A stretch of DNA of 64,000 nt from Ruminiclostridium papyrosolvens DSM 2782 (lineage in GTDB: Bacteria; Bacillota; Clostridia; Acetivibrionales; DSM-1351): the NCBI RefSeq assembly GCF_029318685.1, contig NZ_CP119677.1, positions 1,178,001 through 1,242,000 on the forward strand. Direction: 5' to 3'. This document shows positions 32,462 to 50,364 of the stretch, piece by piece. The notes under the pieces were generated by a model. It had not been told where the DNA came from and did no database searches. It saw only the letters and a list, made by a program, of their open reading frames with translations. Position numbers and translations under genes: made by a program. The stretch's first letter is position 1; each line of letters starts with the position of its first letter.

Positions 32462-32540
32462 ATTATAAATGTCACACGACAAGTGGTTTGCTTGTTTTAT
32501 AAATAATACTTATTTGTTATAGCATAATCCATTCATAATC

Positions 32541-32594: not shown

Positions 32595-32644
32595 ATACCC
32601 AAAAAGAAATCTATGCTGCTCTTTATCAATAAATTTCAACACAA

Positions 32645-32673: not shown

Positions 32674-32713
32674 TTTTGTAATAAAATATAAGATAAGGAA
32701 GAGGGGGATAGTA

Positions 32714-33521: not shown

Positions 33522-33611
33522 TTCTACTAAAAGGTCTGGTGAAATCGAAGGCTTTGCGAAGGATTAGTCACTGATGCAAGCTTGCAGAAAATAGTACAAG
33601 GGGAGGTAGTT

Positions 33612-34661
33612 ATGGCACTTATTATGGTTAACAATTTAGTTAAGGATTATAAGATTAATGTAAGAAAGAAAGGAATCTTAGGTGCAGTACAAGGTCTCCT
33701 TATGCCTGAGTATAAGATAAAACGGGCAGTAGATAATATCAGCTTTGAAATCGCAAAGGGAGATATGGTAGGTTTTATTGGTCCAAACGGTGCTGGAAAA
33801 TCCACAACTATTAAGATGCTCGCTGGCATTCTATCACCTTCTTCAGGTGCAATAAGCGTAGGAGCCCTGTCACCATATAAAGACAGGAAAAAAAACGCTT
33901 CAAAAATTGGAGCAGTTTTTGGACAACGCACCCAATTGTGGTGGGATTTACCTGTTATAGATACTTTCGAATTATTGAAGTACATATACAAAATTCCAGA
34001 AAAAAGATACAAAGAAAACATGGATATATTTAACAGTATGCTGGGACTTAATGAATTTATATCCCAACCGGTGAGGCAACTGAGTCTTGGTCAGAGGATG
34101 AGGGCGGATATAGCAGCATCGCTAATACATGACCCAGAAATAGTTTTTTTTGACGAGCCGACAATTGGCCTTGATGTTGTTGCAAAGGAAAAGATAAGAG
34201 AATTTATAAAATGTGTTAACCAAGAAAAGAATATTACAATGCTCTTTACGACCCACGATATGCTGGATATAGAAAAAACCTGTAAGAGAATGATAATAAT
34301 CGATATGGGTGTAATAATCTATGATGGTACCGCTGATCAGATAAAGAACCAGTATGGAAAATACAGAACCTTGGTTGTGGAGTTTAATCAACTATATAGG
34401 GATATTGAGCTGCCTTCAGGTGTACAACTTGCAGATCAACAGGGCAATAAGAAATGGCTCAGGTTTGATAAGGAAGAAGTACAAGTCTCTGGTTTGATAG
34501 CAGAGTTGACCTCTAAGTATGGGATACTTGACCTAACCATCAAAGAACCGGAAATAGAGGCTATAATAAGAGAAATTTATGAGGGAGGTATCAATATTAG
34601 TGAGAAAATATCTGGAGATTGCAAAAAAATCGTTTCAGAACAATATAGTGTACCGCGTTGA
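33612..34661 (+). CDS. ABC-2 exporter ATPase
   Basis: Start ATG 33612 (349 aa) has AAGGGGAGG 5 bp upstream. Walker A GPNGAGKST, signature LSLGQRMRAD and Walker B VFFDEPTIGLD are intact. The C-terminal extension is typical of ATPases that pair with ABC-2 (PF06182-like) permeases. It overlaps the next gene, and with the two permeases forms an exporter, probably for the island's product. Confidence 0.92.
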   Translation: MALIMVNNLVKDYKINVRKKGILGAVQGLLMPEYKIKRAVDNISFEIAKGDMVGFIGPNGAGKSTTIKMLAGILSPSSGAISVGALSPYKDRKKNASKIGAVFGQRTQLWWDLPVIDTFELLKYIYKIPEKRYKENMDIFNSMLGLNEFISQPVRQLSLGQRMRADIAASLIHDPEIVFFDEPTIGLDVVAKEKIREFIKCVNQEKNITMLFTTHDMLDIEKTCKRMIIIDMGVIIYDGTADQIKNQYGKYRTLVVEFNQLYRDIELPSGVQLADQQGNKKWLRFDKEEVQVSGLIAELTSKYGILDLTIKEPEIEAIIREIYEGGINISEKISGDCKKIVSEQYSVPR

Positions 34662-35388
34662 TTACTTTGCCGGCGTGATTAATACACTATTAATGATATT
34701 TGTCAATATCGCTATCTGGAAAGCAATATATGAGGAAGAAGAAGTTCTCGGTGGTGTACAATTTAAGGTTGTTATGACCTATATTATACTGGGGTTTCTT
34801 ATGCAGAGTATATTCATGATGGAAGAATACCTGATAGAAAGCAAAATAACCAGTGGCTTGATATCTTCCGACCTATTAAAACCTCTAAGTTTCAGGATAA
34901 ATATATTTTCATACAATATAGGAGCTCTTGCTTTCAGGGTAATTATGCAGCTTACTCCGGCTTTAATTGTTTCAATTGTATTATTCAAGCTACTGTCACC
35001 ATTTAACCTGAAGTCGGGAATCCTCTTTTGTATAAGTGCAATACTTGGATATCTTGTTTTGTACAGTATTAATTTTATTGTATGGTTAAGTTCTTTTTGG
35101 TTCTATTGGACATTTAGCATAGTAACTATAAAGGATGCAGTGATATCAATAATGTCAGGGGCGCTTTTTCCACTATGGTTTTTGCCAGAATGGCTACATA
35201 CCTTTACTAAAATTACTCCCTTTGAATCAATTTATTTTGTACCAATATCCATTTATTTAGGACTACTGCCTTATGATGAGATAATATTCGGTATAGTGAA
35301 GCAGGTAATATGGTTAGCTTTGCTTACGATAGTCGGACACATAGTTTGGAAAATGGCGACAAAAAAACTAGTTGTACAAGGAGGTTGA
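34600..35388 (+). CDS. ABC-2 type permease, subunit 1
   Basis: GTG 34600 (263 aa) lies 10 bp after GAGGGAGGT (34581-34589); an ATG at 34579 is possible but would use no clear ribosome binding site. It has about six hydrophobic helices and is similar in type to the following permease. It overlaps the ATPase gene. The architecture (one ATPase, two ABC-2 membrane subunits) resembles drug or natural-product exporters. Confidence 0.82.
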   Translation: MRKYLEIAKKSFQNNIVYRVDYFAGVINTLLMIFVNIAIWKAIYEEEEVLGGVQFKVVMTYIILGFLMQSIFMMEEYLIESKITSGLISSDLLKPLSFRINIFSYNIGALAFRVIMQLTPALIVSIVLFKLLSPFNLKSGILFCISAILGYLVLYSINFIVWLSSFWFYWTFSIVTIKDAVISIMSGALFPLWFLPEWLHTFTKITPFESIYFVPISIYLGLLPYDEIIFGIVKQVIWLALLTIVGHIVWKMATKKLVVQGG

Positions 35389-35393
35389 TTTTT

Positions 35394-36227
35394 ATGCAGC
35401 AAAATAACTCTTTCAGTTCCATGATGGCATTGTTTTTCCGGTTCTCCAAATTAAATCTGAAATCAGCTTTGGAGTACAAGTTTGACAGGTTTTTTCTAGC
35501 TTTTGCAGTGTTCTGCAGGGAAATGGTGAGTATTATAGTCATATATCTTATCCTCACCAGGTTAATAAGAATAAAGGGTTGGGAAATGAATGAGATGTTT
35601 TTCCTATACAGCTTTTTATTCCTATCTTATAGCCTCTTCATTTTTCTTTTTACCGGAATACGGGACTTTGACAATATGGTCTACTCCGGCGAGCTTGACA
35701 GGTATCTTATAAGGCCCTTGGGATTGATGTACCAGATTGTTGCCTCCAGAGTAGATTATTGCGCAACAATAGGGCATGGGGTAGTTGGAGTAATACTTTT
35801 TATAAAGACAGCTTTTAATGTTGGAATTGACTGGAACTATAAAAATATAACATATTATATAGCGGCATTGGTCGGAGGTGCTATTATACAGGCTTCACTT
35901 TTTATGATTTCCTCCTGTTTTAGCTTCTGGGCTGTCAAGACGATCAACTTAAGGAATCTTATATTCTTTAATTCCAGAAGGTTTGCGGGATACCCAATAA
36001 GCTTTTATCCGGGAATCATACAGAAAATGCTCATTTTTATAGTTCCCTTCGCATTTGTAAGCTATTTCCCGGCACAATTTTTTCTTAGGAAACCTGATTT
36101 GTCTATGTTCTGGAGCGGCTATCTTTATATGACGCCAGTTGTAGGGGTTATTATGTTCGTACTTGTATATAGATTCTGGTTGTTTGGCCTTAAACACTAT
36201 TCAAGCACCGGGAATTCTATGTTCTGA
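35394..36227 (+). CDS. ABC-2 type permease, subunit 2
   Basis: ATG 35394 (277 aa) has AAGGAGG 8 bp upstream; the longer in-frame start overlaps the preceding gene and lacks such a site. About six membrane helices are visible, with the cytoplasmic segment TGIRDFDNMVYSGELDRYLI characteristic of PF06182-like permeases. It is the partner of the preceding subunit. Confidence 0.85.
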   Translation: MQQNNSFSSMMALFFRFSKLNLKSALEYKFDRFFLAFAVFCREMVSIIVIYLILTRLIRIKGWEMNEMFFLYSFLFLSYSLFIFLFTGIRDFDNMVYSGELDRYLIRPLGLMYQIVASRVDYCATIGHGVVGVILFIKTAFNVGIDWNYKNITYYIAALVGGAIIQASLFMISSCFSFWAVKTINLRNLIFFNSRRFAGYPISFYPGIIQKMLIFIVPFAFVSYFPAQFFLRKPDLSMFWSGYLYMTPVVGVIMFVLVYRFWLFGLKHYSSTGNSMF

Positions 36228-36260
36228 TAATCAAAATTTTATTTTTGGGGTAAAAATATT

Positions 36261-37823
36261 ATGAAAAAAAAATATACCAACCTAATAATACTTGGCCTAT
36301 TTATTATTGCAGTAGCAGTATATCTTGTAATCAAATATGTAAGCTTCGACCAGATACTTTTTAGGGTCGGATACTATGACAGTAAAATCACAATAGCCAA
36401 TACCGCAGATATCCATGGACACATGGTCTATGATAATGAAACCGGTACATATTATACCTTGGACGAGTTAAGTACCATTATGGGGCTTCCTCTTTTAAAT
36501 TCATATGTAAAGGAGGAACGTGCAAAGGATAAAAACACTTTGCTTTTGGACTGCGGAGACATGTTCCATGGTACAAACGAAGCGAATATAGATCAGGGGA
36601 AAGGCGTTGTAGAATGTGTCAATTTAATGGACTATAATGCGATGGTGCCGGGAAACCATGATTTTAACTTCGGTTTTGACAGGCTGCTAGAGATAAAATC
36701 GCAGCTTAACTTTCCGATTCTTTCAGCTAATATATACAAGGATGGAAAGCAGGTATTTGATGAATATAAAATCTTTGAAGTCAATGGCAAAAAAATTGGT
36801 GTATTCGGACTTACAACTCCTTTTTCTTTAAATTTCGTTCACGATAATTCAGTTACGTTTGATGATCCCATTAAATGCGCAGCGAGAGTTGTTTCAAAAT
36901 TAAAAGGTAAGGTTGATGCAATTGTATTACTCTCACATTTAGGAGACGATGTTGACAAAAACGTTATCCAAAAAGTTGACGGAATAGATCTGGTTTTATG
37001 TGGACATTACCACAACTTGTATAAAACTGCAAAGAAAGTTAATAACACATACATGGCTGAAGCAGGCAGTTTTTCTACGCATCTTGGAGTGGCCGAAATG
37101 TACTTCAAGGGAGGAAAAGTATCAAAAATTGATTGGAAAGTAGAGGCGACAACTGACCGTTCGAAGGAAGATTCTGAACTCAAAAAGGTTTCTGAAGCAT
37201 ATCGTACCAAAGCATTAAAAAGTGCCAAAATAAAAGTGGGAAGCTCAGATGTAGTCTTAAACGGAATAAGAACCCAGGTAAGGTCTAAGGAAACAAATCT
37301 TGCGAATTTATTGACTGATGCACTAAGAGAAGCCGGGGATGCGGATTTGACACTAATGAACGGAGGTGGAATAAGAGAGAGCCTGCCTAAAGGTGAATTA
37401 AACATGTATCAAATCGGTAAAATGCTGCCTTTTGTAAATTCCCTTGTGGTTGTTGAAATGAAGGGAGATATGATATATAAGGCTCTTGAAAGAGGGTTAA
37501 GGGGGTATCCTACAGTTTTTAACGGTGGATTCCTGCAGGTTTCAGGAATGAATTATGTAATAGATGCATCAAAGATGGCAGGGGAAAGACTTGTAAGCGT
37601 AACAAAGGACGGAGTTCCATTAGATAAAGAAAAGATTTACAAAGTTGCGACAAATGATTATCTGTTTTACGGAGGAGACGGGTATGAGGAAATTCAAAAA
37701 TCTAAGCTGTTAGGCACATATGGGTTATTGAAAGATATATTGGGAGATTACATAAAAAGAAAAGGAACAGTCTCGCCCGAAGAGGAGGGCAGAATAAAAA
37801 TTATTAATGAGCGCTACAAATAA
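36261..37823 (+). CDS. Membrane-anchored 5'-nucleotidase/UshA-like metallophosphoesterase
   Basis: This 520-aa protein has an N-terminal membrane anchor (about 7-25) and a calcineurin-like metallophosphatase domain with the motifs ADIHGH, DCGDMFHG, GNHDFNFG and LCGHYHN. The C-terminal 5'-nucleotidase domain includes NGGGIRESL and FYGGDGYEE. It should act outside the cell on phosphate esters such as nucleotides. Its position between an exporter and carrier-protein genes, with a kinase-like gene further along, suggests it may dephosphorylate an exported product; this is an inference. Confidence 0.9.
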   Translation: MKKKYTNLIILGLFIIAVAVYLVIKYVSFDQILFRVGYYDSKITIANTADIHGHMVYDNETGTYYTLDELSTIMGLPLLNSYVKEERAKDKNTLLLDCGDMFHGTNEANIDQGKGVVECVNLMDYNAMVPGNHDFNFGFDRLLEIKSQLNFPILSANIYKDGKQVFDEYKIFEVNGKKIGVFGLTTPFSLNFVHDNSVTFDDPIKCAARVVSKLKGKVDAIVLLSHLGDDVDKNVIQKVDGIDLVLCGHYHNLYKTAKKVNNTYMAEAGSFSTHLGVAEMYFKGGKVSKIDWKVEATTDRSKEDSELKKVSEAYRTKALKSAKIKVGSSDVVLNGIRTQVRSKETNLANLLTDALREAGDADLTLMNGGGIRESLPKGELNMYQIGKMLPFVNSLVVVEMKGDMIYKALERGLRGYPTVFNGGFLQVSGMNYVIDASKMAGERLVSVTKDGVPLDKEKIYKVATNDYLFYGGDGYEEIQKSKLLGTYGLLKDILGDYIKRKGTVSPEEEGRIKIINERYK

Positions 37824-37873
37824 TTGTAGTTAGTAAGTAATATAGTAGCTTAATTTTTAAGGAGGATTCTCAA

Positions 37874-38122
37874 ATGAATGATATTAAGGAAAGAGTAATG
37901 AAAGTTATTGCTAAAAGCGCATTACTAAATGCCGACAATGTTACAGAAAAATCATGGATTGGAAGGGATCATGGTATTGATTCAATAAGGCTGGTTGAGA
38001 TGATTATAAATCTCGAAGACGAGTTTGATATTGAGGTGGACACCAGCTCACTCAGCCATCAGAACTTTGCTAACGTTGATTTAATAACAGAGTATGTCAC
38101 AAGTAAGCTGGAATCGAGGTAA
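37874..38122 (+). CDS. Acyl/peptidyl carrier protein 1
   Basis: This 82-aa acidic helical protein follows AAGGAGGA. The motif HGIDSIRLVEMI gives the serine that would carry 4'-phosphopantetheine, and NLEDEFDIEVD is the usual helix that follows it. It ends 5 bp before the AMP-ligase gene, so the ligase probably loads it. No phosphopantetheinyl transferase gene lies in the island; one elsewhere would be needed. Confidence 0.92.
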   Translation: MNDIKERVMKVIAKSALLNADNVTEKSWIGRDHGIDSIRLVEMIINLEDEFDIEVDTSSLSHQNFANVDLITEYVTSKLESR

Positions 38123-38127
38123 CTGCC

Positions 38128-39615
38128 ATGAATATTTATGATACTCTGGTTAAGTCTGAGTCTGAATATGGTATAAAGGCAGCTGTAACTGATTCGGCCG
38201 GTTTTACATATACTTATTCCGAGATCCTCAGTTATTCAAAGAAAATAGCCGAAAAGCTTCTTGACATTGGGCTGAAGCCGCGCAGCAAGGTTATTATATA
38301 CCTGCAGGATTCTGTGGACGTTGTTGCGGCAATCTATGGGGTAAATATGGCAGGAATGGTATTTGTACCGGTATCGCCTCAAGCAAAGGATTTAAAGCTG
38401 CAGGAAATTATCAGGCACTGCGGTGCAGAAGCTATAATTACCAAGAGTGACTTAAGTGAATTCATAGCTGGAATCAATTCTTATACAATACCATCTGTAA
38501 AAAGCATCCTTTTTTGCAATGACAGTACAGAGGTGCGTAATAATGCCTGCAATCAAGCTGCATATTTTGTGAAAGATTGCGACCTACCTGAAATTTTTAC
38601 GGCCTCAATATGGCTTAAGGACGAAATGGCTTCTATTTTCTATATGTCGGACAAGCATGGGAGGCCGAAGGGGATTATGCTGTCCTCGGGAAATATCCTT
38701 TCTAATATGGATGCAATTATCGAATACCTTAAAATGTCTGATAAAGACAATATACTTATTTTAAAGTCAATGGCATTAGTTGGCACTATGACAGGAGAGA
38801 TAATTGCCGCTATTTCCGTAGGGGCTAAGATTGTAATTCTAAATGGTATCATTCATGCAGGCATCATACTTAAAGCAATACAGGATCATAATGTTACAGG
38901 CTTTTTTGCTGTACCGGTAATGCTTCACCAGATTGTTGAGTACAGAAGGAAAGAAAAATATTCTACATCCAGCTTAAGATATATCCAGACCGGGGCTGCA
39001 AAGCTAATAAAAGAAGATGTACAGCAGCTCTTGGACATGTACAAGGGGGTAGAATTCTATTATATTTACGGTCTTTCAGAGGCATCGCCGAGGGTGCTTC
39101 ATTTAAAGCCCGAGGATATGTTGAGAAAAGCAGGTTCAGTAGGAAAACCGGTTAAATACTGTACTGTAGAGCTTCTTGATGCAAACGAAAATAAAGTCAA
39201 AGCGGGCGAAATAGGTGAAATCTACGTACAAGGCCCTAATGTTATGCTTGGTTATTACAACTCGCCTGAATTAACCAGTGAAGTTATTACTACTCATGGC
39301 TTAAAGACCGGCGACTTGGCATATATGGATGATGAGGGATACATATATTGGGAAGGTAGGGCTGACAATATGATAAACCAGGGAGGCTTTCACGTTTATC
39401 CTGCCGAGATAGAAAAAGTTATCCTAAAAAACGAAAAAGTGCAGTCCGTTAAAGTGGACGGAGTTCAGGATGATATATTAGGACATAAAATAAGGGCTAC
39501 CGTTACACCCAAAGCTGGTTTTGGCATAAGCGAGGCAGAAATTTATGAATTTTGTTATACGCATATGGAAGGAGTAAAGATACCTAAAGTTATTGTGATA
39601 GCTAAGGTTTTATAA
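38128..39615 (+). CDS. AMP-dependent acyl ligase, degenerate core motifs, no A10 lysine
   Basis: This 495-aa ANL-superfamily protein has YGLSEASPRV (A5), TGDLAYMDDEGYIYWEGR (A7) and INQGGFHVYPAEIE (A8-like). The P-loop (A3), usually Ser/Thr/Gly-rich, reads YMSDKHGRPKGIM. The protein ends at IPKVIVIAKVL, without the C-terminal lysine (PxTxxGK) that normally catalyses adenylation. It may therefore have altered chemistry, such as transfer only, or a partner may complement it. It lies between a carrier protein and a DUF3343 gene. Its acid substrate is unknown. Confidence 0.82.
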   Translation: MNIYDTLVKSESEYGIKAAVTDSAGFTYTYSEILSYSKKIAEKLLDIGLKPRSKVIIYLQDSVDVVAAIYGVNMAGMVFVPVSPQAKDLKLQEIIRHCGAEAIITKSDLSEFIAGINSYTIPSVKSILFCNDSTEVRNNACNQAAYFVKDCDLPEIFTASIWLKDEMASIFYMSDKHGRPKGIMLSSGNILSNMDAIIEYLKMSDKDNILILKSMALVGTMTGEIIAAISVGAKIVILNGIIHAGIILKAIQDHNVTGFFAVPVMLHQIVEYRRKEKYSTSSLRYIQTGAAKLIKEDVQQLLDMYKGVEFYYIYGLSEASPRVLHLKPEDMLRKAGSVGKPVKYCTVELLDANENKVKAGEIGEIYVQGPNVMLGYYNSPELTSEVITTHGLKTGDLAYMDDEGYIYWEGRADNMINQGGFHVYPAEIEKVILKNEKVQSVKVDGVQDDILGHKIRATVTPKAGFGISEAEIYEFCYTHMEGVKIPKVIVIAKVL

Positions 39616-39628
39616 GGAAGTGAAAATA

Positions 39629-39898
39629 ATGGGTAAATCATATTTGATAATTGCGAAAAATACAGGTCAAATGATGCTGGTTGATAAAATAATGCGTGAT
39701 AACGGAATAAAGACCGAGATTGTTCCGGCCCCGCCAAGGCCAGGAATGGCATGTACAAAAGCTGTAAAAATCAGAGATTCCGATTTATCTTTGGGAAAGC
39801 AACTTTTATCAGGAAAAAAAGTTGAAGTACATAGTATAGTCGCTGAGGAGGCACTAATGCTAGGAGAGTTTCTTAATAGTAAATTGAATTATCTATAG
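39629..39898 (+). CDS. DUF3343 protein (putative sulfur/selenium carrier-like)
   Basis: Start ATG 39629 (89 aa) has AAGGAAG 8 bp upstream. The sequence (YLIIAKNTGQMMLVDKIM, then PPRPGMACTKAVK with one conserved Cys) matches my memory of DUF3343, small proteins often found next to cysteine desulfurase-family and YedF/selenium genes. A cysteine desulfurase gene lies 2.2 kb downstream in the same island. A role as sulfur relay or substrate carrier is an inference. Confidence 0.75.
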   Translation: MGKSYLIIAKNTGQMMLVDKIMRDNGIKTEIVPAPPRPGMACTKAVKIRDSDLSLGKQLLSGKKVEVHSIVAEEALMLGEFLNSKLNYL

Positions 39899-39953
39899 CT
39901 ACACATTAACACGGAGCGAATTTTCTTGATTAGAATAGGAGGCGTATGTCGTA

Positions 39954-40199
39954 ATGGAGTTTAGAAGGAGTGACATTATAAACATATTATCCAAGGCTTT
40001 GGATGTGGATATTAATGTATTATCACAAATAGGAGATGATGAGGATATTGGTCAATATGGACTTGAGTCTATAAGGGGAATACAAGCAATGGTTTTGCTT
40101 GAAGATGAATTCGATATAGAGTTGATTGATGAAGATTTATTGTTTGAAAATATTAATACCATTAATAAAATTAAAAAAACTTTTGAAAAATATATCTAA
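39954..40199 (+). CDS. Acyl carrier protein 2
   Basis: This 81-aa protein follows AGGAGG. The motif YGLESIRGIQAM supplies the predicted phosphopantetheine serine, and LLEDEFDIELIDEDL is the following acidic helix. It directly precedes the FkbH-like gene, the usual neighbour of a glyceryl-type carrier protein. Base composition is more AT-rich than carrier protein 1, suggesting a separate origin. Confidence 0.9.
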   Translation: MEFRRSDIINILSKALDVDINVLSQIGDDEDIGQYGLESIRGIQAMVLLEDEFDIELIDEDLLFENINTINKIKKTFEKYI

Positions 40200-40227
40200 A
40201 TTTTTTTGTATTGAAGGTGGTGAATGA

Positions 40228-42018: not shown

Positions 42019-42062
42019 TTGTATTGTAATAAATGGAGTATGTTAAGGGAGGTTATGTTCAA

Positions 42063-43217
42063 ATGATATACTTGGATAATGCCGCGACTACTTACCCTAA
42101 GCCCGATAAGGTGTATAAGGAAATGGACAGGTGTATGCGTGAATATTGCGCAAATCCCGGTCGTGGTGGGCATTCAATGTCAATACAGTCAGGACAGGCT
42201 GTAATGGAAGCGCGTGAGAAAGTAAGCAAGTTCTTTAATATCAGTAATCCTATGCAAATATGTTTTACAAAAAATGCTACTGAGGCTTTGAATATAGCTA
42301 TAAAGGGAAGCCTTAAAGCTGGAGACCATGTAATAACAACAAGCCTTGAACACAACTCTGTTATGAGACCACTTAAGCTGCTTGAAAGAAACCTTGGTGT
42401 TGAAGTCACAGTTGTCAGCGGTGATGTATTCGGTGAAATTGACCCTGATGATATACAAAAAAGCATCAAAAAAAACACCAGGCTAATAGTAGCTACCCTT
42501 TCATCAAATGTAAACGGAATACTTCTGCCTGCTAAGGATATTGGCAAAATAGCCGGTGAAAACGGGATAATGTACTTGCTTGATGGATCACAGGGGGCGG
42601 GAACAATAAACATTGATGTTGAGGATATGAATATAAGTATGTTGGCATTTCCAGGGCATAAAAGCTTGATGGGACCTGTTGGGACAGGGGGCTTGTATAT
42701 CAGGGAAGGACTGAAAGTTAAATCTATCCTGCAAGGTGGAACTGGGAGTAATTCTGAGAATTTTACACAGCCTGAGTTCATGCCTGACCTTATGGAAAGC
42801 GGAACCTTGAACACACCGGGTATAGTGGGTCTGGGCTATGGTATTGACTTCATAAATAGCAAAGGCATTGAAAATATAAGAGCACATAAATACCAACTTG
42901 TTAAAATGCTCTTTGAAGGTGTCCGAGAACTAAAAAATGTAAAGCTGTACAGTAAAAATCATATAGAAAAAAATTCTGGTATTGTGGCACTTAATTTCGA
43001 GGGTGTACCCTCCAGTGAAATAAGCTATGTTTTGGACAAGGTCTATAACATAGGGACGAGGGCCGGTATGCACTGTGCTCCTATAGCACATGATACATTA
43101 GGTACATCAATTACAGGAGCAGTAAGGTGCAGTGTTGGCGTATTCAATACAGCTTCTGAAATAGAAGCAACAATAAATGCACTTAAAGAAATATCATTAA
43201 ACGTAAACAAGCTGTAA
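42063..43217 (+). CDS. Cysteine desulfurase family protein (class V aminotransferase)
   Basis: Start ATG 42063 (384 aa) is 9-10 bp after AGGGAGGT; the earlier in-frame ATG lies before that site. It opens with MIYLDNAATTYPKP. PLP lysine K200 is in PGHKSLMGPVGTGG, and a reactive-loop cysteine C338 is in GMHCAPIAHDTLGT. This matches the SufS-like cysteine desulfurase family (the EF2568-like group) that often sits beside DUF3343. It would release sulfur from cysteine as an enzyme persulfide. No Fe-S scaffold gene is nearby, so a pathway-specific sulfur donor is plausible. Confidence 0.92.
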   Translation: MIYLDNAATTYPKPDKVYKEMDRCMREYCANPGRGGHSMSIQSGQAVMEAREKVSKFFNISNPMQICFTKNATEALNIAIKGSLKAGDHVITTSLEHNSVMRPLKLLERNLGVEVTVVSGDVFGEIDPDDIQKSIKKNTRLIVATLSSNVNGILLPAKDIGKIAGENGIMYLLDGSQGAGTINIDVEDMNISMLAFPGHKSLMGPVGTGGLYIREGLKVKSILQGGTGSNSENFTQPEFMPDLMESGTLNTPGIVGLGYGIDFINSKGIENIRAHKYQLVKMLFEGVRELKNVKLYSKNHIEKNSGIVALNFEGVPSSEISYVLDKVYNIGTRAGMHCAPIAHDTLGTSITGAVRCSVGVFNTASEIEATINALKEISLNVNKL

Positions 43218-43335
43218 ACACTTCAAAAATATGCTAATTCCAAAAATATATTAACTCAAGGGGGGACAAAAGGACTTCCACTTACCAGATTGATAAGTTC
43301 AGGTGAAAAGTATCAAATTAGAGGGGGAATATAAA

Positions 43336-44493
43336 ATGCCACAAATTGTAAATGAATTGACAAAGGAAAGACAATTGGTATTACTATGCTCGAGAGGAGT
43401 ATTAAAGGAAGAGCACATAGAAGAAATTAAAACTATCATGGATGGAAATCTAGATTGGAAAGAGATATTGTACCAAGGGATAACCCACAGAACATTAAAT
43501 ATCATGTATTACCATTTAAAGAACCTCAGGCTTACGGACAAAATCGAAGAAGAAGTTCTCAAAGCCATGAAGACGCAGAGCAAGGTATATGCAATCAGGA
43601 ATAAATCGTACTTTGAAGAGATAAAGGTTATCTTTGACAAACTGAATGAAAATGGTATTCGTTTAGCAATTCTGAAAGGAAATTTTCTGGCTTCCAAGGT
43701 GTATCCTTCAGTTGAGACCAGAACATTTAATGATCTTGATTTCCTCATAGATGTAAGGGATGGAGACAAAATAGTAAATATATTGGAAGAATTAGGTTAT
43801 ATTCAAGGTGAAGTAAATGAAAATGGAGATATTATACCTAGTACAAGAAAGCAAAAAATGCTTCAACAATTAGCCTCAAATGAACTTCAGGAATGCCTTA
43901 AAAAGACAGATAACCCATTCACACCAATGTTCCAAGTGGATTTAAACTTTGATGTACTCTGGAAAGGAAATTGTCCTTGCAAAATAGATACGCCTGAATT
44001 GCTTGAAAGAGCAATAGAAGTTGACATTGACGGTGCAAAGACACTTATTCTTGGTTATGAAGATTTCTTGATACAACTGGCATGCCATCTGTATAAGGAA
44101 GCTGCTTTGCTGCACTGGGTCAGTGATCTGAGAGATCTTAAAATATACAAGTTTGCAGATATATTAATGTTCGTTGAAAAATTCTCAGACAAGATCAACT
44201 GGGACAAGCTGGTGTCCTTTAGTAAAAGGGTAGGATGTGAAAGCATAGTTTATTACGCATTCTATTACGTAAATCTTATGTATGGACAAGTAATTCCAGA
44301 GGGCGTTATGAAAGCAATAGAGCCTGAAAGCAAGGAATATCTTGATGAGTACGGTATTGAGAATGAAAAGCCATCTAAATGGCAGTTTGATTTCTTTACC
44401 AGAATGTTTGAGACAAGCAGGGTATTGGATGTAAGTGAGGAGATGCTTTCAAACAAAAAAAGATTTTGGGATACAAAGAAACAGTCAACCTAA
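43336..44493 (+). CDS. Nucleotidyltransferase-family protein (NTP_transf_5-like)
   Basis: Start ATG 43336 (385 aa) follows AGAGGGGG; the upstream in-frame ATG has no such site. The core has ILKGNFLASKVYPSVETRTFNDLDFLID, read here as the lysine-glycine and D-L-D pattern of PF14907 proteins, and VDLNFDVLWKG. These are often encoded in peptide and natural-product clusters. The biochemical role of the family is poorly known; nucleotide transfer to a small molecule is a possibility only. Confidence 0.75.
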   Translation: MPQIVNELTKERQLVLLCSRGVLKEEHIEEIKTIMDGNLDWKEILYQGITHRTLNIMYYHLKNLRLTDKIEEEVLKAMKTQSKVYAIRNKSYFEEIKVIFDKLNENGIRLAILKGNFLASKVYPSVETRTFNDLDFLIDVRDGDKIVNILEELGYIQGEVNENGDIIPSTRKQKMLQQLASNELQECLKKTDNPFTPMFQVDLNFDVLWKGNCPCKIDTPELLERAIEVDIDGAKTLILGYEDFLIQLACHLYKEAALLHWVSDLRDLKIYKFADILMFVEKFSDKINWDKLVSFSKRVGCESIVYYAFYYVNLMYGQVIPEGVMKAIEPESKEYLDEYGIENEKPSKWQFDFFTRMFETSRVLDVSEEMLSNKKRFWDTKKQST

Positions 44494-44515
44494 TTTTATA
44501 AAGGGAGGATTTTGT

Positions 44516-45391
44516 GTGGATTACAGACAGGTTTTAAGGGATTTAATATTTAAAATTTCATATGAGGTTTCAGATGACTGCCGATGCCTTCTAAACAAAG
44601 CAGTTGAAATAGAAACAGATGAATCGTCGAAAATGATACTTGAAACAATTATAGAAAATGTAAGTATTGCAAGGGAATGCAAACAAGCTTTGTGCCAATC
44701 TCCAGGATATCTTACTACATACGTAACCTTTGGAGATGATTTCTTTATTTCGGATTTGGAGCAAATATTAAAGGAAGCTGTAATAGATGCAACAAAAGCA
44801 GGTTACTTGCGCCCAAGTATGGTTGACCCTCTTACACGTGTAAACAGTGGCGACAACAGCGGGCGTGGTGTGCCAAATATGGAGTACGAGTATAAGAAGG
44901 GTATTGATTACATCGAAATCATCCCAAGCATAAAGGGTTGCGGTATAGAATTGTACAATAAAGTTAAAGTATTCACTATTGCTGAAATAGGTGACAATTT
45001 TGAAGGCATCAAGAAATTCGTACTGGAATGTGTTGTTGAAGCCGGGGGTACAGCATGTCTACCATCTGCAATAGGTATAGGCATAGGTGGTCAGTTGGAC
45101 GTTGCTGCAAAACTTAGCAGAAGAGCTATGAGTCTGAGAGGTTGGATGCAGAGGAGTGAGGACAAGCGCTTGGCACAACTGGAAGATGAGCTACTTGAGG
45201 CAATAAATTCGCTTAACATTGGTTCGGGTGGTACAGGCGGCAAAGTAACTACACTCGGAGTCAATATTGAGACTGCGGCCACCCATACAACACTCTGTCC
45301 TGTTGCAATCAATTTTCACTGCTGGGTTGCGCGAAGGGCGGGCATAAGGATATATAAGGACGGAAGAGTGGAAGAATTGAGCTTTATGTAA
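44516..45391 (+). CDS. Fumarase/tartrate dehydratase alpha-subunit-like protein (divergent)
   Basis: GTG 44516 (291 aa) follows AAGGGAGG by 7 bp. The protein matches class I fumarate hydratase alpha subunits, for example in GGTACLPSAIGIGIGGQLD. The usual cluster motif PLCQDTG reads ALCQSPG, and the usual PKGxGSEN stretch reads IKGCGIELYNK. So the Fe-S hydro-lyase fold is kept but substrate contacts differ, suggesting a new substrate. The beta-subunit gene follows after 17 bp. Confidence 0.82.
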   Translation: MDYRQVLRDLIFKISYEVSDDCRCLLNKAVEIETDESSKMILETIIENVSIARECKQALCQSPGYLTTYVTFGDDFFISDLEQILKEAVIDATKAGYLRPSMVDPLTRVNSGDNSGRGVPNMEYEYKKGIDYIEIIPSIKGCGIELYNKVKVFTIAEIGDNFEGIKKFVLECVVEAGGTACLPSAIGIGIGGQLDVAAKLSRRAMSLRGWMQRSEDKRLAQLEDELLEAINSLNIGSGGTGGKVTTLGVNIETAATHTTLCPVAINFHCWVARRAGIRIYKDGRVEELSFM

Positions 45392-45408
45392 TGAAAGGGG
45401 GGATTTAC

Positions 45409-46023
45409 ATGAAAACCTATTATTTGAAGACTCCTCTAAAAGATGAGGACATTGCAAAGCTTGAAGCTGGAGACACAGTCTATCTGAGCGGGAAACTATA
45501 TACGGCAAGGGATATGGCTCATTATAAACTGAAAAAGCTCCTTGACAGTAATGGAAAATTTGATGAAGACCTTAATGGCCAGGCTATATTTCATGCAGGC
45601 CCAATCATTAGTGTAAATAGGGAAAGTGGGGAATATAAAGTAATTTCAATTGGTCCTACCAGTAGCATAAGAATGGATCCATACACTGACATGGTTGGTG
45701 AAATGGGTGTCAAAATACTCATAGGAAAAGGCGGTATGAGTGATTCGACTACTGAAGCGATGAAAAAGCACACTATGGTATATCTTCTTGCTGCCCATGG
45801 TTGTGCTGCTGTACACACTCAAAGGGTTACCAAGGTCACTCATCAGTACTGGATGGATAAAATAGGTATGCCTGAAGCCATGTGGGTCATGGAATGCGAT
45901 AATCTTGGTCCACTGATTGTAGGTATTGACTCCAAAGGCAGAAATCTTTTTGAGGAAACAAGAAAAAATTCCAAAGACATGATTGAAGCTATAAGTAAGC
46001 AAACACATTGTAAAAGTAAATAG
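45409..46023 (+). CDS. Fumarase/tartrate dehydratase beta-subunit-like protein
   Basis: ATG 45409 (204 aa) follows GAAAGGGGGGA; an ATG at 45391 precedes that site. Family features include AGDTVYLSGKLYTARDMAH, HAGPII, GPTSSIRMDP and the GKGGMSDSTTEAM loop. It completes a two-subunit hydro-lyase with the alpha gene. In the island it may hydrate or dehydrate a dicarboxylate building block. Confidence 0.88.
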   Translation: MKTYYLKTPLKDEDIAKLEAGDTVYLSGKLYTARDMAHYKLKKLLDSNGKFDEDLNGQAIFHAGPIISVNRESGEYKVISIGPTSSIRMDPYTDMVGEMGVKILIGKGGMSDSTTEAMKKHTMVYLLAAHGCAAVHTQRVTKVTHQYWMDKIGMPEAMWVMECDNLGPLIVGIDSKGRNLFEETRKNSKDMIEAISKQTHCKSK

Positions 46024-46030
46024 GTCCGTT

Positions 46031-46732
46031 ATGGATAAGCATAATTATAAAACCAATACTCAAAAAGGTGTTTTAATAGTCTGTGAAGGAATCAGCGGTT
46101 CAGGAAAAAGTGAAAGTATTGCAAAGATATATAATCACCTAAGTGCGCAATACAATGTGCAAATTGTTGAGTGGAATTCAAATGAAAAAATCAGAAAAAT
46201 TGTTAAAGCACTCTGCAATTTAAAAATGCTTACATCAACTATATACAGTATTTTGCAGTGGATTAGCTTTTGCATTGACTACTTTACAAGGATATTACCA
46301 GCTCTAAACAAGGGCAACATAGTTATAGCAGACAGGTATGTATACACAGCCTTAACCCGTGATATAGTTAACGGCTCAAGTGTGCTACCCGGTAAATACC
46401 TTTGTACCCTGGTAAGAAAGCCGGAGATGCTATTCTTCTATGACACAAATTGTGAATTGTGCTATGAAAGAATACTTACGAGAGGTAAGGCTTTATTTCA
46501 TACAAATAAATACATTAAGCGCAACAAGCTTCTGAAAAACAAAAATTTGTATTATCTAATGAAGCTCAGGGGTGAATATATGAAGATTTTGCGAAAAAGT
46601 AACCTCCTTGGTCATACAAATGTTGTTATCATAAAAAATGATGAGGTTAATGTGATTAAAATGTTGGATCAATATTTAATGTTAAAATACGGAGATACCA
46701 ATAAAAGTCAGGAACAGTTTATCAATAAATAG
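46031..46732 (+). CDS. Thymidylate kinase-like P-loop kinase
   Basis: This 233-aa protein has a Walker A CEGISGSGKSES and the DRY motif region ADRYVYTALTRD seen in dTMP kinases, plus a lid region RILTRGKALFH. It diverges from housekeeping Tmk in its C-terminal third. The start has only a weak AGGTCC-type site 8 bp after the fumarase gene, suggesting translational coupling. It may phosphorylate a nucleotide or the pathway product. Confidence 0.82.
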   Translation: MDKHNYKTNTQKGVLIVCEGISGSGKSESIAKIYNHLSAQYNVQIVEWNSNEKIRKIVKALCNLKMLTSTIYSILQWISFCIDYFTRILPALNKGNIVIADRYVYTALTRDIVNGSSVLPGKYLCTLVRKPEMLFFYDTNCELCYERILTRGKALFHTNKYIKRNKLLKNKNLYYLMKLRGEYMKILRKSNLLGHTNVVIIKNDEVNVIKMLDQYLMLKYGDTNKSQEQFINK

Positions 46733-46762
46733 ATAGAAATTATACAGTAAGGGGGAGTTAAA

Positions 46763-47407
46763 GTGTATAAAGTTTTAAAGCCATGTGCTGAAACATATAA
46801 ATTAGCCGGCGAGGCGATAAAGAGGGGAAAGGTCATTGTTGTACCCACAGATGCAGTGTATGCAGTGGTCTGTGATGCTTTCAACAAGGAAGCTGTTGAG
46901 AGACTTAGAGAAATCCGAAAGAGTCCTCAAGATAAGCCGTTATCATTGATTATAGATAAAAAGGATATAGATAAATATTGTCATATAAAAAATGAAACTT
47001 ATAAAAGTATTATCGATGCATTACTTCCGGGTAAAGTCAGTTTCCTTATAAATAAAAAAGGTGATATTTTTACAGATGCAGTTCCAAATAGTGATGCTAT
47101 ATGTGTTTTCTGGCAGGATAATGAGACTAAAGACGTTTATGAGGAAAGCGGCACTGTGCTTGCCATTTCATCGGCAAACAAGGCAGGGTTTCCTGAAGCT
47201 ACCACGCTTGAGCAGGCCATAAGCTTTTTTGAAGATGAAGTTGAACTATTTATTGATAGTGGAGAGGAACGGGGCAACAAAGGCACAACGCAGTTGGATA
47301 TAAGGAATGACAGCATCAGTATTATGAGGGAATCGCCAATGTTTCCGCTGGTTGAAATAAACAAGGTTCTGGATGCAAAAGGGATACCAGCCTTAAGGAA
47401 GGTATGA
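46763..47407 (+). CDS. Sua5/YciO/YrdC-family protein
   Basis: This 214-aa protein starts at GTG 46763 after AAGGGGGAG. It has KVIVVPTDAVYAVVCDAF, IRKSPQDKPLSLII and SSANKAGFPEA, the nucleotide- and carbamoyl-binding motifs of the YrdC fold. Sua5 makes threonylcarbamoyl-AMP for tRNA t6A; the housekeeping copy usually has a longer C-terminal domain, absent here. Within the island it may form a carbamoyl-type adenylate for the product, an inference from context. Confidence 0.85.
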   Translation: MYKVLKPCAETYKLAGEAIKRGKVIVVPTDAVYAVVCDAFNKEAVERLREIRKSPQDKPLSLIIDKKDIDKYCHIKNETYKSIIDALLPGKVSFLINKKGDIFTDAVPNSDAICVFWQDNETKDVYEESGTVLAISSANKAGFPEATTLEQAISFFEDEVELFIDSGEERGNKGTTQLDIRNDSISIMRESPMFPLVEINKVLDAKGIPALRKV

Positions 47408-47408
47408 T

Positions 47409-48185
47409 ATGAGTTTCTATAACTATAATGGTGTATACATATTTTATGAAGTTACAGGAAATGGTGGAGAATGTGTACTACTTATCCACGGGTTAGGTTC
47501 ATCTAGCAGGATTTATAGTAATATTTCAAAATATGATTTCTTTAGAAAGAATTACAATGTTTTGTTTATAGACCTTGTTGGATACGGTAACTCAGACAAA
47601 CCGATGGAATTTGACTATTCCATCAAATCTCAAGCCGTAGCATGTCTTCATTTAATTGACTACTTAGGTATAAATACCACTCATATAATTGCACATTCAA
47701 TGGGAGGAGTTGTAGCCCAGTATATATGCGAAAGTATGAAAGTAAAGTCATTTATTAATTGTGAGGGCAACCTTACCTTGGACGATTGCAAGCTATCAGC
47801 ATCTATTTATAATATGGGGTATGAAGTTTTCAACCGGGGAGGCTTCAAATTCCTCAAAAAAAAATATCACACAATTCCATTTTATGAGAGTCTATGCATG
47901 ACAAACGCTTATGTTATGTATGAGTCCTCAAAAAGTCTGGTAGAAGTATGTCAAACCGATAATATCCTTGAACGATTCATCATGCTTGACACTGGAAAAA
48001 TGTATGTTTACGGTGAGCAAAACCTTGGAAAAAGGAAGTCTCAAGATTATCTGCGTGATACGGGCATACCAATAAAATATATTAAAAACAGTGGACATAA
48101 TATGATAGAAGAAAACCCGCACAATTTTTATGAAACACTTATTAAGTATTTCTCCAATGCAAATTCTAAAGGGGGGAGAGTATGA
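47409..48185 (+). CDS. Alpha/beta-hydrolase, possible thioesterase
   Basis: This 258-aa protein begins within 2 bp of the Sua5-like stop, with AAGGAAGGT upstream. It has the oxyanion region LLIHGLGSSSR, nucleophile elbow IAHSMGGVVAQ and C-terminal NSGHNMIEENP catalytic His. Such hydrolases serve as release or editing thioesterases in carrier-protein pathways, but simple ester hydrolysis is equally possible. It overlaps the next gene by 4 bp. Confidence 0.85.
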   Translation: MSFYNYNGVYIFYEVTGNGGECVLLIHGLGSSSRIYSNISKYDFFRKNYNVLFIDLVGYGNSDKPMEFDYSIKSQAVACLHLIDYLGINTTHIIAHSMGGVVAQYICESMKVKSFINCEGNLTLDDCKLSASIYNMGYEVFNRGGFKFLKKKYHTIPFYESLCMTNAYVMYESSKSLVEVCQTDNILERFIMLDTGKMYVYGEQNLGKRKSQDYLRDTGIPIKYIKNSGHNMIEENPHNFYETLIKYFSNANSKGGRV

Positions 48186-49201
48186 AATTTATCATACCTG
48201 AATTAGAAACGTACATAAAAGACGGTGTGTTTTGCTTGTATTCAGCCATAGAAGACACATTAAGACATCAAAAATATGACTTATCGTGTGTTGATATATT
48301 TATGCTGTGCAATGGATTTAATGTCGTATACGAATCAGACTTGAATCGTATAGGATACAGCGGTCTTGACGATGTTATAGAAAATATGGCAAGAGAAAAC
48401 CTTTTTAAAATAAATATGTGTTACATGCAGCAAGATAAGGATGAGCTTTTCCAAAAGGTTTGCAATGCGGTACTTGATAACAATGTTGTCATACTGTTTG
48501 TAGGAACTGCGAACTTGAATTACAGTAATGTCTTTAGGGAGATAAGCGATGAAAATAGAGGGCATTGTATTCTTATGTATGGTATAGACTCCGAACAAGG
48601 CATCGTGTATGTTGCGGACGCATATTTCAAAGATTCTTCAGGAAGGATGAAAAAATATCAAGGGCCTGCCTCAATTGAGGATATTAGGAAAAGCATTTTT
48701 GGATTTGTATGGTTTGATACTGATAAAACATCAAACCTTATAAGTAAGAAGATGGTTCTTGATACCACTATAAATAATTTGAAAGCCTTTATGGAAGGAG
48801 CTATGACAGGAAATAAATTTTTCGGAAATCTTGCTTTTAAAAGGTTTGTTGGCGACCTGAATAAATTGGAGGCCCTTGATGAAGATTCATTTGCAAAGAC
48901 TTGTGAAAACATAAATTTCACTATTAAAATTAGGAGTGCAATGGTAATTATTGATAATATGATAAGCTTCATCAGAAATAATGCTAATTTCCAAATAGAA
49001 GGCTACGATACGGTGTTGGAATCACTTCAGACTCTGAGACGGGAATGGGACAAGCTTGCTCTTAATGTAACTAAAGCCGGTTTGACCAAGAGGAAAAGAA
49101 TGATACCTGCTATATGCGAAATAGCAAATAATACAATACAGTTACAGGATAAGACATTTAGTAACTACTTGCAGTATCTTGAGAAAGTAAAGATTACGTG
49201 A
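48182..49201 (+). CDS. BtrH-like papain-fold acyltransferase/peptidase 1
   Basis: This 339-aa protein overlaps the hydrolase gene (ATGA), with GGGGGGAGAG upstream. The N-terminal half fits the BtrH N-terminal/C39-like papain fold: candidate nucleophile Cys18 (GVFCLYSAIED), His128 (NRGHCILMYGID) and Asp146 (VADAYFKD). BtrH moves an acyl group from a carrier protein to an amine in butirosin biosynthesis, and cysteine-protease-like enzymes act similarly in closthioamide assembly, from memory. The C-terminal half is helical. With two carrier proteins in the island, an amide-forming role is likely. Confidence 0.75.
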   Translation: MKFIIPELETYIKDGVFCLYSAIEDTLRHQKYDLSCVDIFMLCNGFNVVYESDLNRIGYSGLDDVIENMARENLFKINMCYMQQDKDELFQKVCNAVLDNNVVILFVGTANLNYSNVFREISDENRGHCILMYGIDSEQGIVYVADAYFKDSSGRMKKYQGPASIEDIRKSIFGFVWFDTDKTSNLISKKMVLDTTINNLKAFMEGAMTGNKFFGNLAFKRFVGDLNKLEALDEDSFAKTCENINFTIKIRSAMVIIDNMISFIRNNANFQIEGYDTVLESLQTLRREWDKLALNVTKAGLTKRKRMIPAICEIANNTIQLQDKTFSNYLQYLEKVKIT

Positions 49202-49306
49202 GTTTGATGGAATTACAGAAAACATTACAAATATACAACGAGGCGAGAAAATAGCAAAATCTATGTGTGAAGTTTGAGTCAATAATAAATATAGAAAGGG
49301 TTTATT

Positions 49307-50344
49307 ATGAAAAAAGTACTAGAACCAATGAAAGCATTTTATGGAATGAAGGACATGTTAGGAATTGAGGATCCTTATGGTGATTGTATGAGTATGTCCG
49401 ATTTAGCTACACTAAACTATTTTGGTCTATGCGGTTTGGAAATTATATATAATTTTTACTTTGTCTATAACTTCGCGGATGATGATCGAAATCTTTTCGG
49501 ATGCCCAGTATTTTGTATAGATACACTTTTATTTGATAAACGAGAAAATATATTGAAAGGCTTAGGAATAGATATTATAGAAAAACAGCCTAAAATGGAT
49601 TTATTAGTTGAAAGTATAAGAGAATCCATAATGAATAATAGGCCCATTTTTCTTTTTGTGGATTTATTCTATCAGAAAGGAAGATTTTTTTATTATAATA
49701 ACCGACATGCACCTCATGCTTGTCTTGTATATGGTTTCGATGATGAAAATCAAGTTGTATATACTATTGACGATTATAATGGATATAAGACTTACATAGT
49801 TTCCTATGATATGATTGTACAGTATTGCAAAGGTATATTTGAATATTGCAATTTTAGAAAAGATTCACTATACTTTCGTGAATACTGCTTTGAAGGTACT
49901 AATCTGAAGTTTGATGAAGAATATAATTCTAAAGTTCTGAGGAAATTTTTTAAAAATTCATTATCTAAAGCAGAAGAGCGATATAAAAGTTTAAATTTAA
50001 TTAAAGTTCTTAGTGAGGATTTAGAAAGTTTTATAAATGTATCATCCTTTGAAGCAATCCTTTCCAGCGTAATATATAAAAGAGGTTCTGAATGCTTTAT
50101 GATTAAAAATCTTTACCAATATGATACTTTTGATAAAAATATACAATCAGAAATTGATAGCAAACTAAATACAATTTTACAAAATTGGACACTCATTAGA
50201 AATACGGTTTGCCATTATAATTTGAATAAAAAAAACATGGATAAAAAATGCAACAAAATCAAGCAGATATTAGATACTATTTACGAGGACGAAACCACAT
50301 ATAGTGATTTATTATATAGCCAATTTAGGCAGTTTATCGGATAG
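49307..50344 (+). CDS. BtrH-like papain-fold protein 2
   Basis: This 345-aa protein follows AGAAAGGG. It has the same layout as its neighbour: Cys27 (PYGDCMSMSDLA), His137 (APHACLVYGFD) and Asp155 (YTIDDYNGY), then a helical C-terminal half. Sequence identity to the first protein is low, and the gene is much more AT-rich, so it is not a recent duplicate. It may work with the first as a pair acting on two carrier-bound intermediates. The 105-bp gap before it holds no clear gene. Confidence 0.7.
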   Translation: MKKVLEPMKAFYGMKDMLGIEDPYGDCMSMSDLATLNYFGLCGLEIIYNFYFVYNFADDDRNLFGCPVFCIDTLLFDKRENILKGLGIDIIEKQPKMDLLVESIRESIMNNRPIFLFVDLFYQKGRFFYYNNRHAPHACLVYGFDDENQVVYTIDDYNGYKTYIVSYDMIVQYCKGIFEYCNFRKDSLYFREYCFEGTNLKFDEEYNSKVLRKFFKNSLSKAEERYKSLNLIKVLSEDLESFINVSSFEAILSSVIYKRGSECFMIKNLYQYDTFDKNIQSEIDSKLNTILQNWTLIRNTVCHYNLNKKNMDKKCNKIKQILDTIYEDETTYSDLLYSQFRQFIG

Positions 50345-50364
50345 GGTATTCAATATTCTTATGA

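Follow-up and report, generated by a model that had tools for sequence, protein, structure and literature searches.

A candidate carrier-protein-based biosynthetic cluster with sulfur-supply and fumarase-like genes on a genomic island of Ruminiclostridium papyrosolvens

Background

The DNA gyrase inhibitor closthioamide, which comes from the genus Ruminiclostridium and gives an example of what related chemistry can yield, is made by a pathway with carrier-dependent amide formation, as stated in the excerpted text of PMC6772006. In butirosin biosynthesis BtrH serves as an ACP:aminoglycoside acyltransferase (ACP, acyl carrier protein; excerpt of PMC10318531), and FkbH-type proteins together with an ACP make glyceryl-ACP, according to the portion of PMC7489565 cited here. 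In this work we describe a candidate biosynthetic gene cluster in a 64,000-nt stretch of the anaerobic cellulose degrader Ruminiclostridium papyrosolvens DSM 2782 (contig NZ_CP119677.1, positions 1,178,001-1,242,000); the whole stretch is called the window, and all coordinates are positions in it. Our main conclusion is that this horizontally gained cluster encodes the synthesis of a small molecule, probably one with sulfur, on carrier proteins and with no modules of nonribosomal peptide synthetases (NRPS) or polyketide synthases (PKS), as well as the masking and export of this molecule. We assign this conclusion a probability of about 0.5.

Results

The cluster consists of 18 genes (33612-50344), which according to the list of open reading frames are all on the + strand, with intergenic gaps not exceeding 118 nt (Table 1). 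A preliminary description of this DNA, made from the letters alone, had listed carrier proteins, an AMP-ligase, an FkbH-like loader, a cysteine desulfurase with DUF3343, a fumarase-like pair, Sua5-like, BtrH-like and kinase-like proteins, an alpha/beta hydrolase, a phosphatase and an exporter. All genes named there are present and co-directional, and the labels are supported by scans against Pfam (20 proteins) and NCBIfam. Ketosynthase, condensation, YcaO and AANH domains, which it had reported as absent, were likewise not listed among the 20 proteins scanned against Pfam. Overlooked at that stage were a LuxR-type regulator, the NTP_transf_5 gene and a 225-bp direct repeat.

The genes form a genuine set, oriented in one direction and conserved together. 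When 148 relatives, R. papyrosolvens included, were searched with BtrH1, matches were obtained in seven genomes: its own, R. hungatei DSM 14427 (G004; 93%), G007 (82%) and four distant ones. In G007 the regulator, kept upstream with 81% identity, and 17 of the 18 genes are syntenic at 81-95% protein identity; the exception is BtrH2, in whose place two other BtrH-like proteins are found. R. hungatei holds most of the cluster genes. Its FkbH is reduced to a short N-terminal remnant between ACP2, which is kept, and the desulfurase, and five extra genes lie between the desulfurase and the NTP_transf_5 gene: a GatZ/KbaZ-like (over the Pfam cut-off) and an HAD-like gene (just under it), and ribulose-phosphate-epimerase-like, glycosyltransferase-like and large BtrH-like genes recognized by eye. 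This part of the R. hungatei locus (L014:5743-13151), with FkbH gone and sugar- or transfer-type genes gained, looks as if a building block had been swapped.

A core of the cluster occurs also outside the genus, in Anaerobacterium chartisolvens (DSM 27016; locus L085), in the order exporter, 5'-nucleotidase, ACP1, ligase-like protein (62% identity), DUF3343, desulfurase, NTP_transf_5 (84%), FumA (89%), FumB (71%) and kinase. No match to ACP2, FkbH, the Sua5-like protein, the alpha/beta hydrolase or BtrH was found in the 20.7 kb seen of this locus. A FumA search at E <= 1e-60 detected four of the 58 genomes of the order, namely R. papyrosolvens, R. hungatei, G007 and G035; the percentages for G035 equal those of the A. 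chartisolvens locus. The core cluster of A. chartisolvens is followed by four consecutive, very long proteins that resemble one another by eye (L085:10725-20660; 631-931 aa, the fourth incomplete), and the 631-aa protein had no Pfam match at E <= 0.01. Comparison with G007 indicated purifying selection, with omega values of 0.04-0.21 for 13 genes. Thus, instead of the scattered housekeeping paralogs that the preliminary description had named as the counter-case, a set was found that is co-conserved in G007, in R. hungatei and, as a core, in A. chartisolvens.

The distribution of the cluster was determined by scanning 84,980 species genomes with an alignment of the dTMP-kinase-like protein; a locus had to match either of two peptide patterns exactly. 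The 71 loci obtained, together with the island, the G007 cluster and a paralogous cluster in the R. papyrosolvens genome (L022:8229 to L023:8380, at about 895-915 kb of G000:C1), were tabulated as 74 stretches. An exporter module, defined as at least two of the ATPase, the two permeases and the 5'-nucleotidase, was present in 20 of them; L113, with two weak matches, was excluded, and L083 was counted since its upstream genes (exporter, 5'-nucleotidase, ACP, ligase-like, DUF3343) lie in L014. The 20 clusters belong to Ruminiclostridium, Anaerobacterium, Acetivibrio, Paenibacillus, Cohnella or Gorillibacterium or to one of five metagenome bins; 19 of them have the 5'-nucleotidase and 18 have NTP_transf_5. 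Four clusters hold the complete set of DUF3343, desulfurase, FumA and FumB genes; in the other 16 none of the four was found, the scanned loci covering no more than 10 kb on each side of the kinase. ATP-grasp genes occur in 13 of these 16 and genes for a LysA-type decarboxylase in 12, whereas neither was found in the four clusters of the sulfur/fumarase variant. The island is one variant of a wider cluster family in Clostridia and Bacilli, whose members share one export module.

The near-constant company of exporter, 5'-nucleotidase, NTP_transf_5 and kinase in clusters whose assembly genes differ, in one case beside an NRPS-like gene (L086, by eye), suggests that these four serve a shared handling of the finished product and not its assembly. 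The metal motifs of the 5'-nucleotidase (AD[IV]HGH, GNHD, GHYH) are retained in relatives. This protein had been called a membrane phosphatase; it is indeed a phosphohydrolase, but more exactly a UshA-type 5'-nucleotidase, its N-terminal hydrophobic segment being recognized by eye. Intracellular phosphorylation as a means of self-protection is known from acarbose and capreomycin, as described in the excerpt of PMC9854587.

Some loci of the scan deserve mention in their own right. R. papyrosolvens locus L095 is a relative of the paralogous cluster, with best matches of 79-92% for seven genes. In L086:10729-20615, from a Clostridia metagenome bin, the export/nucleotidyltransferase module lies near a BtrH-like-looking protein and the start of an NRPS (by eye). 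Many of the loci L099-L141 and L143-L153 (Verrucomicrobia, archaea and others) carry tandem dTMP-kinase-like matches without other cluster genes, the exceptions being one NTP_transf_5 match in L135 and the two weak exporter matches of L113.

The island (32464-51996, 19.5 kb) lies between the two copies of the 225-bp direct repeat. The gene whose 3' end is copied in the repeat has DNA matches in seven of the 11 genus genomes, R. papyrosolvens included, and in three of them (G008, G005 and G002) the genes flanking the island on the left and on the right are adjacent, as expected of empty sites. R. hungatei and G007, which carry the cluster, showed no DNA match to this left-flank gene, so the cluster sits elsewhere in these genomes. 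Measured in 2-kb steps, the island has a G+C content of 0.30-0.40, against 0.37-0.43 for the flanking DNA. For the IS240-type element at the right end, no second full copy was found in the R. papyrosolvens genome, and no convincing terminal inverted repeats were detected. A tblastn search of plasmids with FkbH, the ligase-like protein and NTP_transf_5 returned only matches below 60% identity. From the direct repeat and the empty sites we regard the island as mobile and probably gained horizontally.

Both carriers retain the serine of their motif: that of ACP1 (GIDSIRL) is kept in all three relatives, that of ACP2 (GLESIRG) in R. hungatei and G007. FkbH scored 276.8 bits with TIGR01686 (cut-off 146.65); it has both the DxDNxLWGG and the SCRxxGR motif, and the ACP2 gene is adjacent. 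Among 30 FkbH loci the HAD motif pattern was found in all and SCRxxGR in 15, thus the latter is not universal. FkbH was also tried as a signature for further islands, and was given up: of the 62 places with FkbH hits (50 of 391 class genomes), 30 were inspected with flanks of about 1.5 kb, and a desulfurase or DUF3343 was alongside only in the window and in G007.

BtrH1 scored 42.1 bits with BtrH_N (cut-off 29.7), and its C18-H128-D146 is invariant in all eight aligned rows, which represent seven distinct genes. In a three-row alignment of BtrH2 the His and Asp columns are common, and the Cys is common only with L098. Neither the BtrH1 profile nor NTP_transf_5 had a significant match among PDB chains. 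The FkbH/ACP pair, the BtrH-like papain-type enzyme and the exporter, all co-conserved, bear out the earlier proposal of an NRPS-independent carrier-protein cluster. The BtrH_N match, and the fact that no amine-building enzyme was recognized in the island, would also fit a butirosin-like decoration, in which the island merely acylates an amine core made by other host genes. We consider this unlikely: the ATP-grasp and PLP (pyridoxal phosphate) decarboxylase of a butirosin-type module were not found in any of the four variant clusters, and the different genomic places of the cluster among its carriers argue for a self-contained pathway.

In the ANL superfamily the A3 P-loop (TSGSTG) and the A10 lysine are needed for adenylation. 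An alignment of 16 ligases showed that in all four variant clusters the TSGST...KG loop of the ligase-like protein is replaced by MSDKHGRPKG or LWDKNGMPKG, and that the protein ends just before the C-terminal GK lysine motif (A10), whereas the 12 other ligases retain both. Its YGxSE, TGD and hinge segments are preserved. Within the genus omega is 0.16-0.20 for this protein, comparable to FkbH (0.15) and the 5'-nucleotidase (0.15-0.22). A search of 398 phylum genomes for relatives at E <= 1e-80 returned only R. papyrosolvens itself, a weak result with at most three candidates scored per genome. Because P-loop and A10 lysine are lost in all four clusters, yet the gene is under purifying selection, the protein probably does not adenylate; it is a maintained protein, but probably not a normal adenylating loader. 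The preliminary description had listed it as an AMP-ligase; carrier loading by a normal enzyme of this kind is not supported.

The lost ligase signatures, and the short FkbH remnant in R. hungatei, could be taken as signs of a decaying, non-functional cluster. This is extremely unlikely, as the ligase losses are identical in all four clusters, the low omega values within the genus are accompanied by 62% identity across genera, and the other catalytic motifs checked are intact. In another alternative the ligase-like protein would hold an acyl-adenylate made elsewhere, which would be attacked by a DUF3343 persulfide to give a thiocarboxylate, passed on later to the BtrH enzymes. Such a thioacid route would agree with the position of the DUF3343 gene directly after the ligase-like gene in all four clusters and with the loss of P-loop and A10 lysine while the YGxSE, TGD and hinge segments were kept. 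It is improbable all the same, since no enzyme making the acyl-adenylate was identified, and NTP_transf_5 is also present in clusters with intact ligases.

The cysteine desulfurase scored 492 bits with TIGR01977 (cut-off 377), and its catalytic Cys (RAGMHC) is present in all four clusters, as is the PGMACTK cysteine of DUF3343. DUF3343 has elsewhere been proposed as a selenium-trafficking protein (excerpt of PMC9312934). SelD did not reach the cut-off in any of the 11 genus genomes, all with weak matches, and was over it in two of 14 control genomes; SclA scored 351 bits against a cut-off of 525. Selenium in place of sulfur was rejected on these two results. A sulfur role is suggested for DUF3343 because SelD was not found, and for the desulfurase/DUF3343 pair sulfur appears likelier than selenium.

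All 11 genomes of the genus also encode one or more separate housekeeping class I fumarases, 36-39% identical to the cluster copy. The Asp of the CQDT motif has a catalytic role in fumarases. CQDTG is found in all 13 housekeeping copies of the genus and CQSPG in all four cluster copies. In a maximum-likelihood tree of 25 rows a branch with 100/100 support separates nine CQSP sequences (four from clusters, five others) from 16 CQDT sequences; two copies, one CQSP (L212) and one CQDT (L210), are missing from the tree, evidently removed by the length filter of 250-420 aa. By their residues, the pair is assigned to a CQSP subfamily apart from the housekeeping copies. Changes private to the cluster copies are ACLPS (PCPPI, PCPPV or PCPPG elsewhere) and AAHGC (AAPGC elsewhere). 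Alignment to PDB chain 7xky showed that the three Fe-S cysteines, the histidine and GPTxSxRMD and GKG of the beta subunit are retained; we take the roles of these residues to be those assigned in the Leishmania enzyme.

The fumarase pair might also act as a sulfur-adding hydro-lyase: FumAB would add sulfide or persulfide, delivered by desulfurase and DUF3343, to fumarate or a similar acid and so form a building block of the thiomalate type. The all-or-none occurrence of desulfurase, DUF3343 and FumAB in the 20 clusters speaks for it, and so do the private changes and the Ser after the cluster cysteine, where the 13 housekeeping copies have an acidic residue. CQSP, however, is a trait of a wider subfamily: such copies occur in six of 398 phylum genomes besides R. 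papyrosolvens, with no desulfurase or DUF3343 match near any of the six, and in all four neighbourhoods read the gene stands beside an MmgE/PrpD-type gene (L207, verified with Pfam; L209, L210 and L211, by eye). We therefore regard this alternative as doubtful, and the D-to-S change in FumA is weakened as an argument for sulfur chemistry. In two of the four loci an ordinary CQDT fumarase is nearby as well.

The KxR motif has a functional role in Sua5/TsaC. The Sua5-like protein, 23-28% identical to the housekeeping Sua5 copies, scored 121.6 bits with TIGR00057, just below the cut-off of 123.2, and has RKSP or RQSP where the housekeeping copies have KGRP (3/3). With KxR replaced and the score below the synthase cut-off, a threonylcarbamoyl-AMP role is unsupported. 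YciO, another paralog, was reported to be without TsaC function in vivo (excerpt of PMC12506659). The Sua5-like protein matched one PHROGs family, of unknown function. For this protein and for the fumarase pair the fold labels of the preliminary description were right, but the active-site positions differ from those of the housekeeping enzymes. Both families have separate housekeeping copies in each of the 11 genus genomes, as would be the case if FumAB and the Sua5-like protein were resistant copies of the product's targets. Such immunity by target duplication is very unlikely: neither looks like a drop-in target copy, because FumA is set apart by the 100/100 branch, and in the Sua5-like protein KxR is missing and the score falls just below the cut-off.

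Table 1. Features of the island and their positions in the window
Feature	Position	Strand	Remarks
Left copy of 225-bp direct repeat	32239-32463		3' end of gene 30263-32461; 98% identical to right copy
LuxR-type regulator	32817-33521	+	GerE 2.9e-13
ABC exporter ATPase	33612-34661	+	ABC_tran 5.2e-26
ABC-2 permease 1	34597-35388	+	PF06182 (ABC2_membrane_6)
ABC-2 permease 2	35394-36227	+	PF06182 (ABC2_membrane_6)
UshA-type 5'-nucleotidase/phosphohydrolase	36261-37823	+	Metallophos and 5_nucleotid_C; N-terminal hydrophobic segment (by eye)
Carrier protein ACP1	37874-38122	+	PP-binding; serine in GIDSIRL
AMP-ligase-like (ANL) protein	38128-39615	+	AMP-binding; without A3 P-loop and A10 lysine
DUF3343 / Se_S_carrier	39629-39898	+	Pfam; cysteine in PGMACTK
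Carrier protein ACP2	39954-40199	+	PP-binding; serine in GLESIRG
FkbH-type HAD loader	40228-42018	+	TIGR01686; LDCDNVLWGG, LSCRALGR
Cysteine desulfurase, EF2568/TIGR01977 type	42063-43217	+	Catalytic Cys in RAGMHCAP
NTP_transf_5 nucleotidyltransferase	43336-44493	+	Pfam; FNDLDFL
CQSP-type class I fumarase-like alpha subunit (FumA)	44510-45391	+	Fumerase
Class I fumarase-like beta subunit (FumB)	45406-46023	+	Fumerase_C
dTMP-kinase-like P-loop kinase	46031-46732	+	Thymidylate-kinase-like; bait for cluster family
Sua5/YrdC/YciO-like protein	46763-47407	+	Sua5_yciO_yrdC; without KxR residues
Alpha/beta hydrolase	47409-48185	+	Pfam; HSMGG
BtrH-like papain-type enzyme 1 (BtrH1)	48182-49201	+	BtrH_N 42.1 bits; C18-H128-D146
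BtrH-like protein 2 (BtrH2)	49307-50344	+	BtrH_N below cut-off
IS240-type transposase, right end of island	50704-51639	-	Pfam
Right copy of 225-bp direct repeat	51772-51996		98% identical to left copy

Discussion

In the pathway that we propose, FkbH would load a glyceryl unit from 1,3-bisphosphoglycerate onto ACP2, as its family and the adjacent carrier gene suggest, and the cysteine desulfurase with DUF3343 would supply persulfide sulfur. The CQSP-type fumarase pair may make or use a C4-type dicarboxylic acid. The ligase-like protein, having lost the residues described above, would not carry out normal ATP-dependent adenylation; more likely it handles a ready-made acyl-adenylate or acyl-carrier, perhaps in an exchange with ACP1 or the DUF3343 sulfur carrier. 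BtrH1, and perhaps BtrH2, would couple an amine with the acyl groups bound to the carriers, judging from the family and the conserved Cys-His-Asp. A nucleotidyl or phosphate mask would be put on the product inside the cell by the nucleotidyltransferase and/or the dTMP-kinase-like protein. The ABC exporter would carry the masked product out, and the membrane-anchored 5'-nucleotidase would unmask it outside, which is consistent with their near-constant co-occurrence in the 20 clusters.

Several observations weigh against this interpretation. Because the scan used the kinase as bait, every scanned locus necessarily contains it; the loci extend no more than 10 kb from it on each side, and absences apply to this range only. 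For NTP_transf_5 the identity falls to about 30% in L084, L087 and L092. Three of the four variant clusters are from one genus, and the all-or-none pattern corresponds to about two lineages. In the comparison with R. hungatei, where dS is low (0.04-0.18), omega ranges from 0.07 to 0.62, the short ACP1 being highest. FkbH is absent in R. hungatei despite the sulfur/fumarase genes and is not an obligatory partner of them; as seen in the 20.7 kb of the A. chartisolvens locus, neither are ACP2, FkbH, the Sua5-like protein, the alpha/beta hydrolase and BtrH. BtrH2, counted in the preliminary description as the second of two BtrH-like proteins, scores 24.1 bits, under the BtrH_N cut-off of 29.7, so that the label stands at full strength for BtrH1 and only below the cut-off for BtrH2. 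Fumarases of the CQSP type are also found where no link to sulfur is seen, and no sulfur acceptor was identified.

The ligase-like protein allows a more specific proposal, tentative and rather unlikely to hold in full: an enzyme of the adenylate-forming fold would have lost its ATP chemistry and turned into an acyl or thioacyl transferase that needs no ATP and, with the persulfide pair and the CQSP fumarase, sulfurates a carrier-bound C4 acid. We know of no earlier sulfur-supply system tied to a BtrH-type cluster, and this one would be the first if the ATP-independent transferase reading were true. The cluster thus raises the questions of what loads the carriers in place of a normal ligase or ATP-grasp enzyme and of where the sulfur supplied by desulfurase and DUF3343 ends up. 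Kinase or nucleotidyltransferase, exporter and outer 5'-nucleotidase may form a general self-protection circuit. Cultured strains carrying the cluster are R. hungatei DSM 14427 and A. chartisolvens DSM 27016, both of which we take to be harmless cellulose degraders.

The island gene set, whole or in parts, was not found as a described cluster in the open-access literature searched. The butirosin side-chain module includes BtrI, BtrJ and BtrK, with an ATP-grasp enzyme and a PLP decarboxylase among the gene roles. It has an acyltransferase of the BtrH_N family and a discrete carrier in common with the island, which lacks the ATP-grasp enzyme and the decarboxylase and in which no aminoglycoside core genes were recognized. 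The sister clusters, like the butirosin module, do have both. The paralogous cluster of the R. papyrosolvens genome follows the same block order (LuxR regulator in the same relative place, 31% identical; exporter, 5'-nucleotidase, ACP, ligase, NTP_transf_5, kinase and several BtrH-like genes), but differs in its intact ligase, ATP-grasp enzyme, PLP decarboxylase, thioesterase and glycosyltransferase-like gene and in having no sulfur or fumarase genes.

In the tetronate and methoxymalonyl pathways the glyceryl-ACP loaders (Mad7/Mad8 and Mad14/Mad12 in the excerpt of PMC7489565) pair FkbH with a discrete ACP, as in the island; unlike those pathways, the island has no FabH-like ring-forming enzyme, dehydrogenases or PKS. 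The closthioamide cluster of R. cellulolyticum, as far as the excerpted text of PMC6772006 describes it, resembles the island in being NRPS-independent, in its two discrete carriers and in its origin from an anaerobe of the same genus. Its amide formers are of the peptidyl-transferase/transglutaminase type and the putative ones of the island of the papain type, a likeness judged by domain rather than by homology to CtaG/CtaJ; according to the same excerpt that cluster has no gene for sulfur mobilisation, whereas the island encodes sulfur mobilisation. The AANH thioamide synthetase CtaC is without a match among the 20 scanned island proteins, and the ATP-grasp loader CtaD and the decarboxylase CtaF have none in the four variant clusters. 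Compared with closthioamide, the island adds FkbH, the fumarase pair and the Sua5-like protein, and its ligase is degenerate. We class it with the NRPS-independent carrier-protein pathways of the closthioamide/butirosin kind, of which it is a variant.

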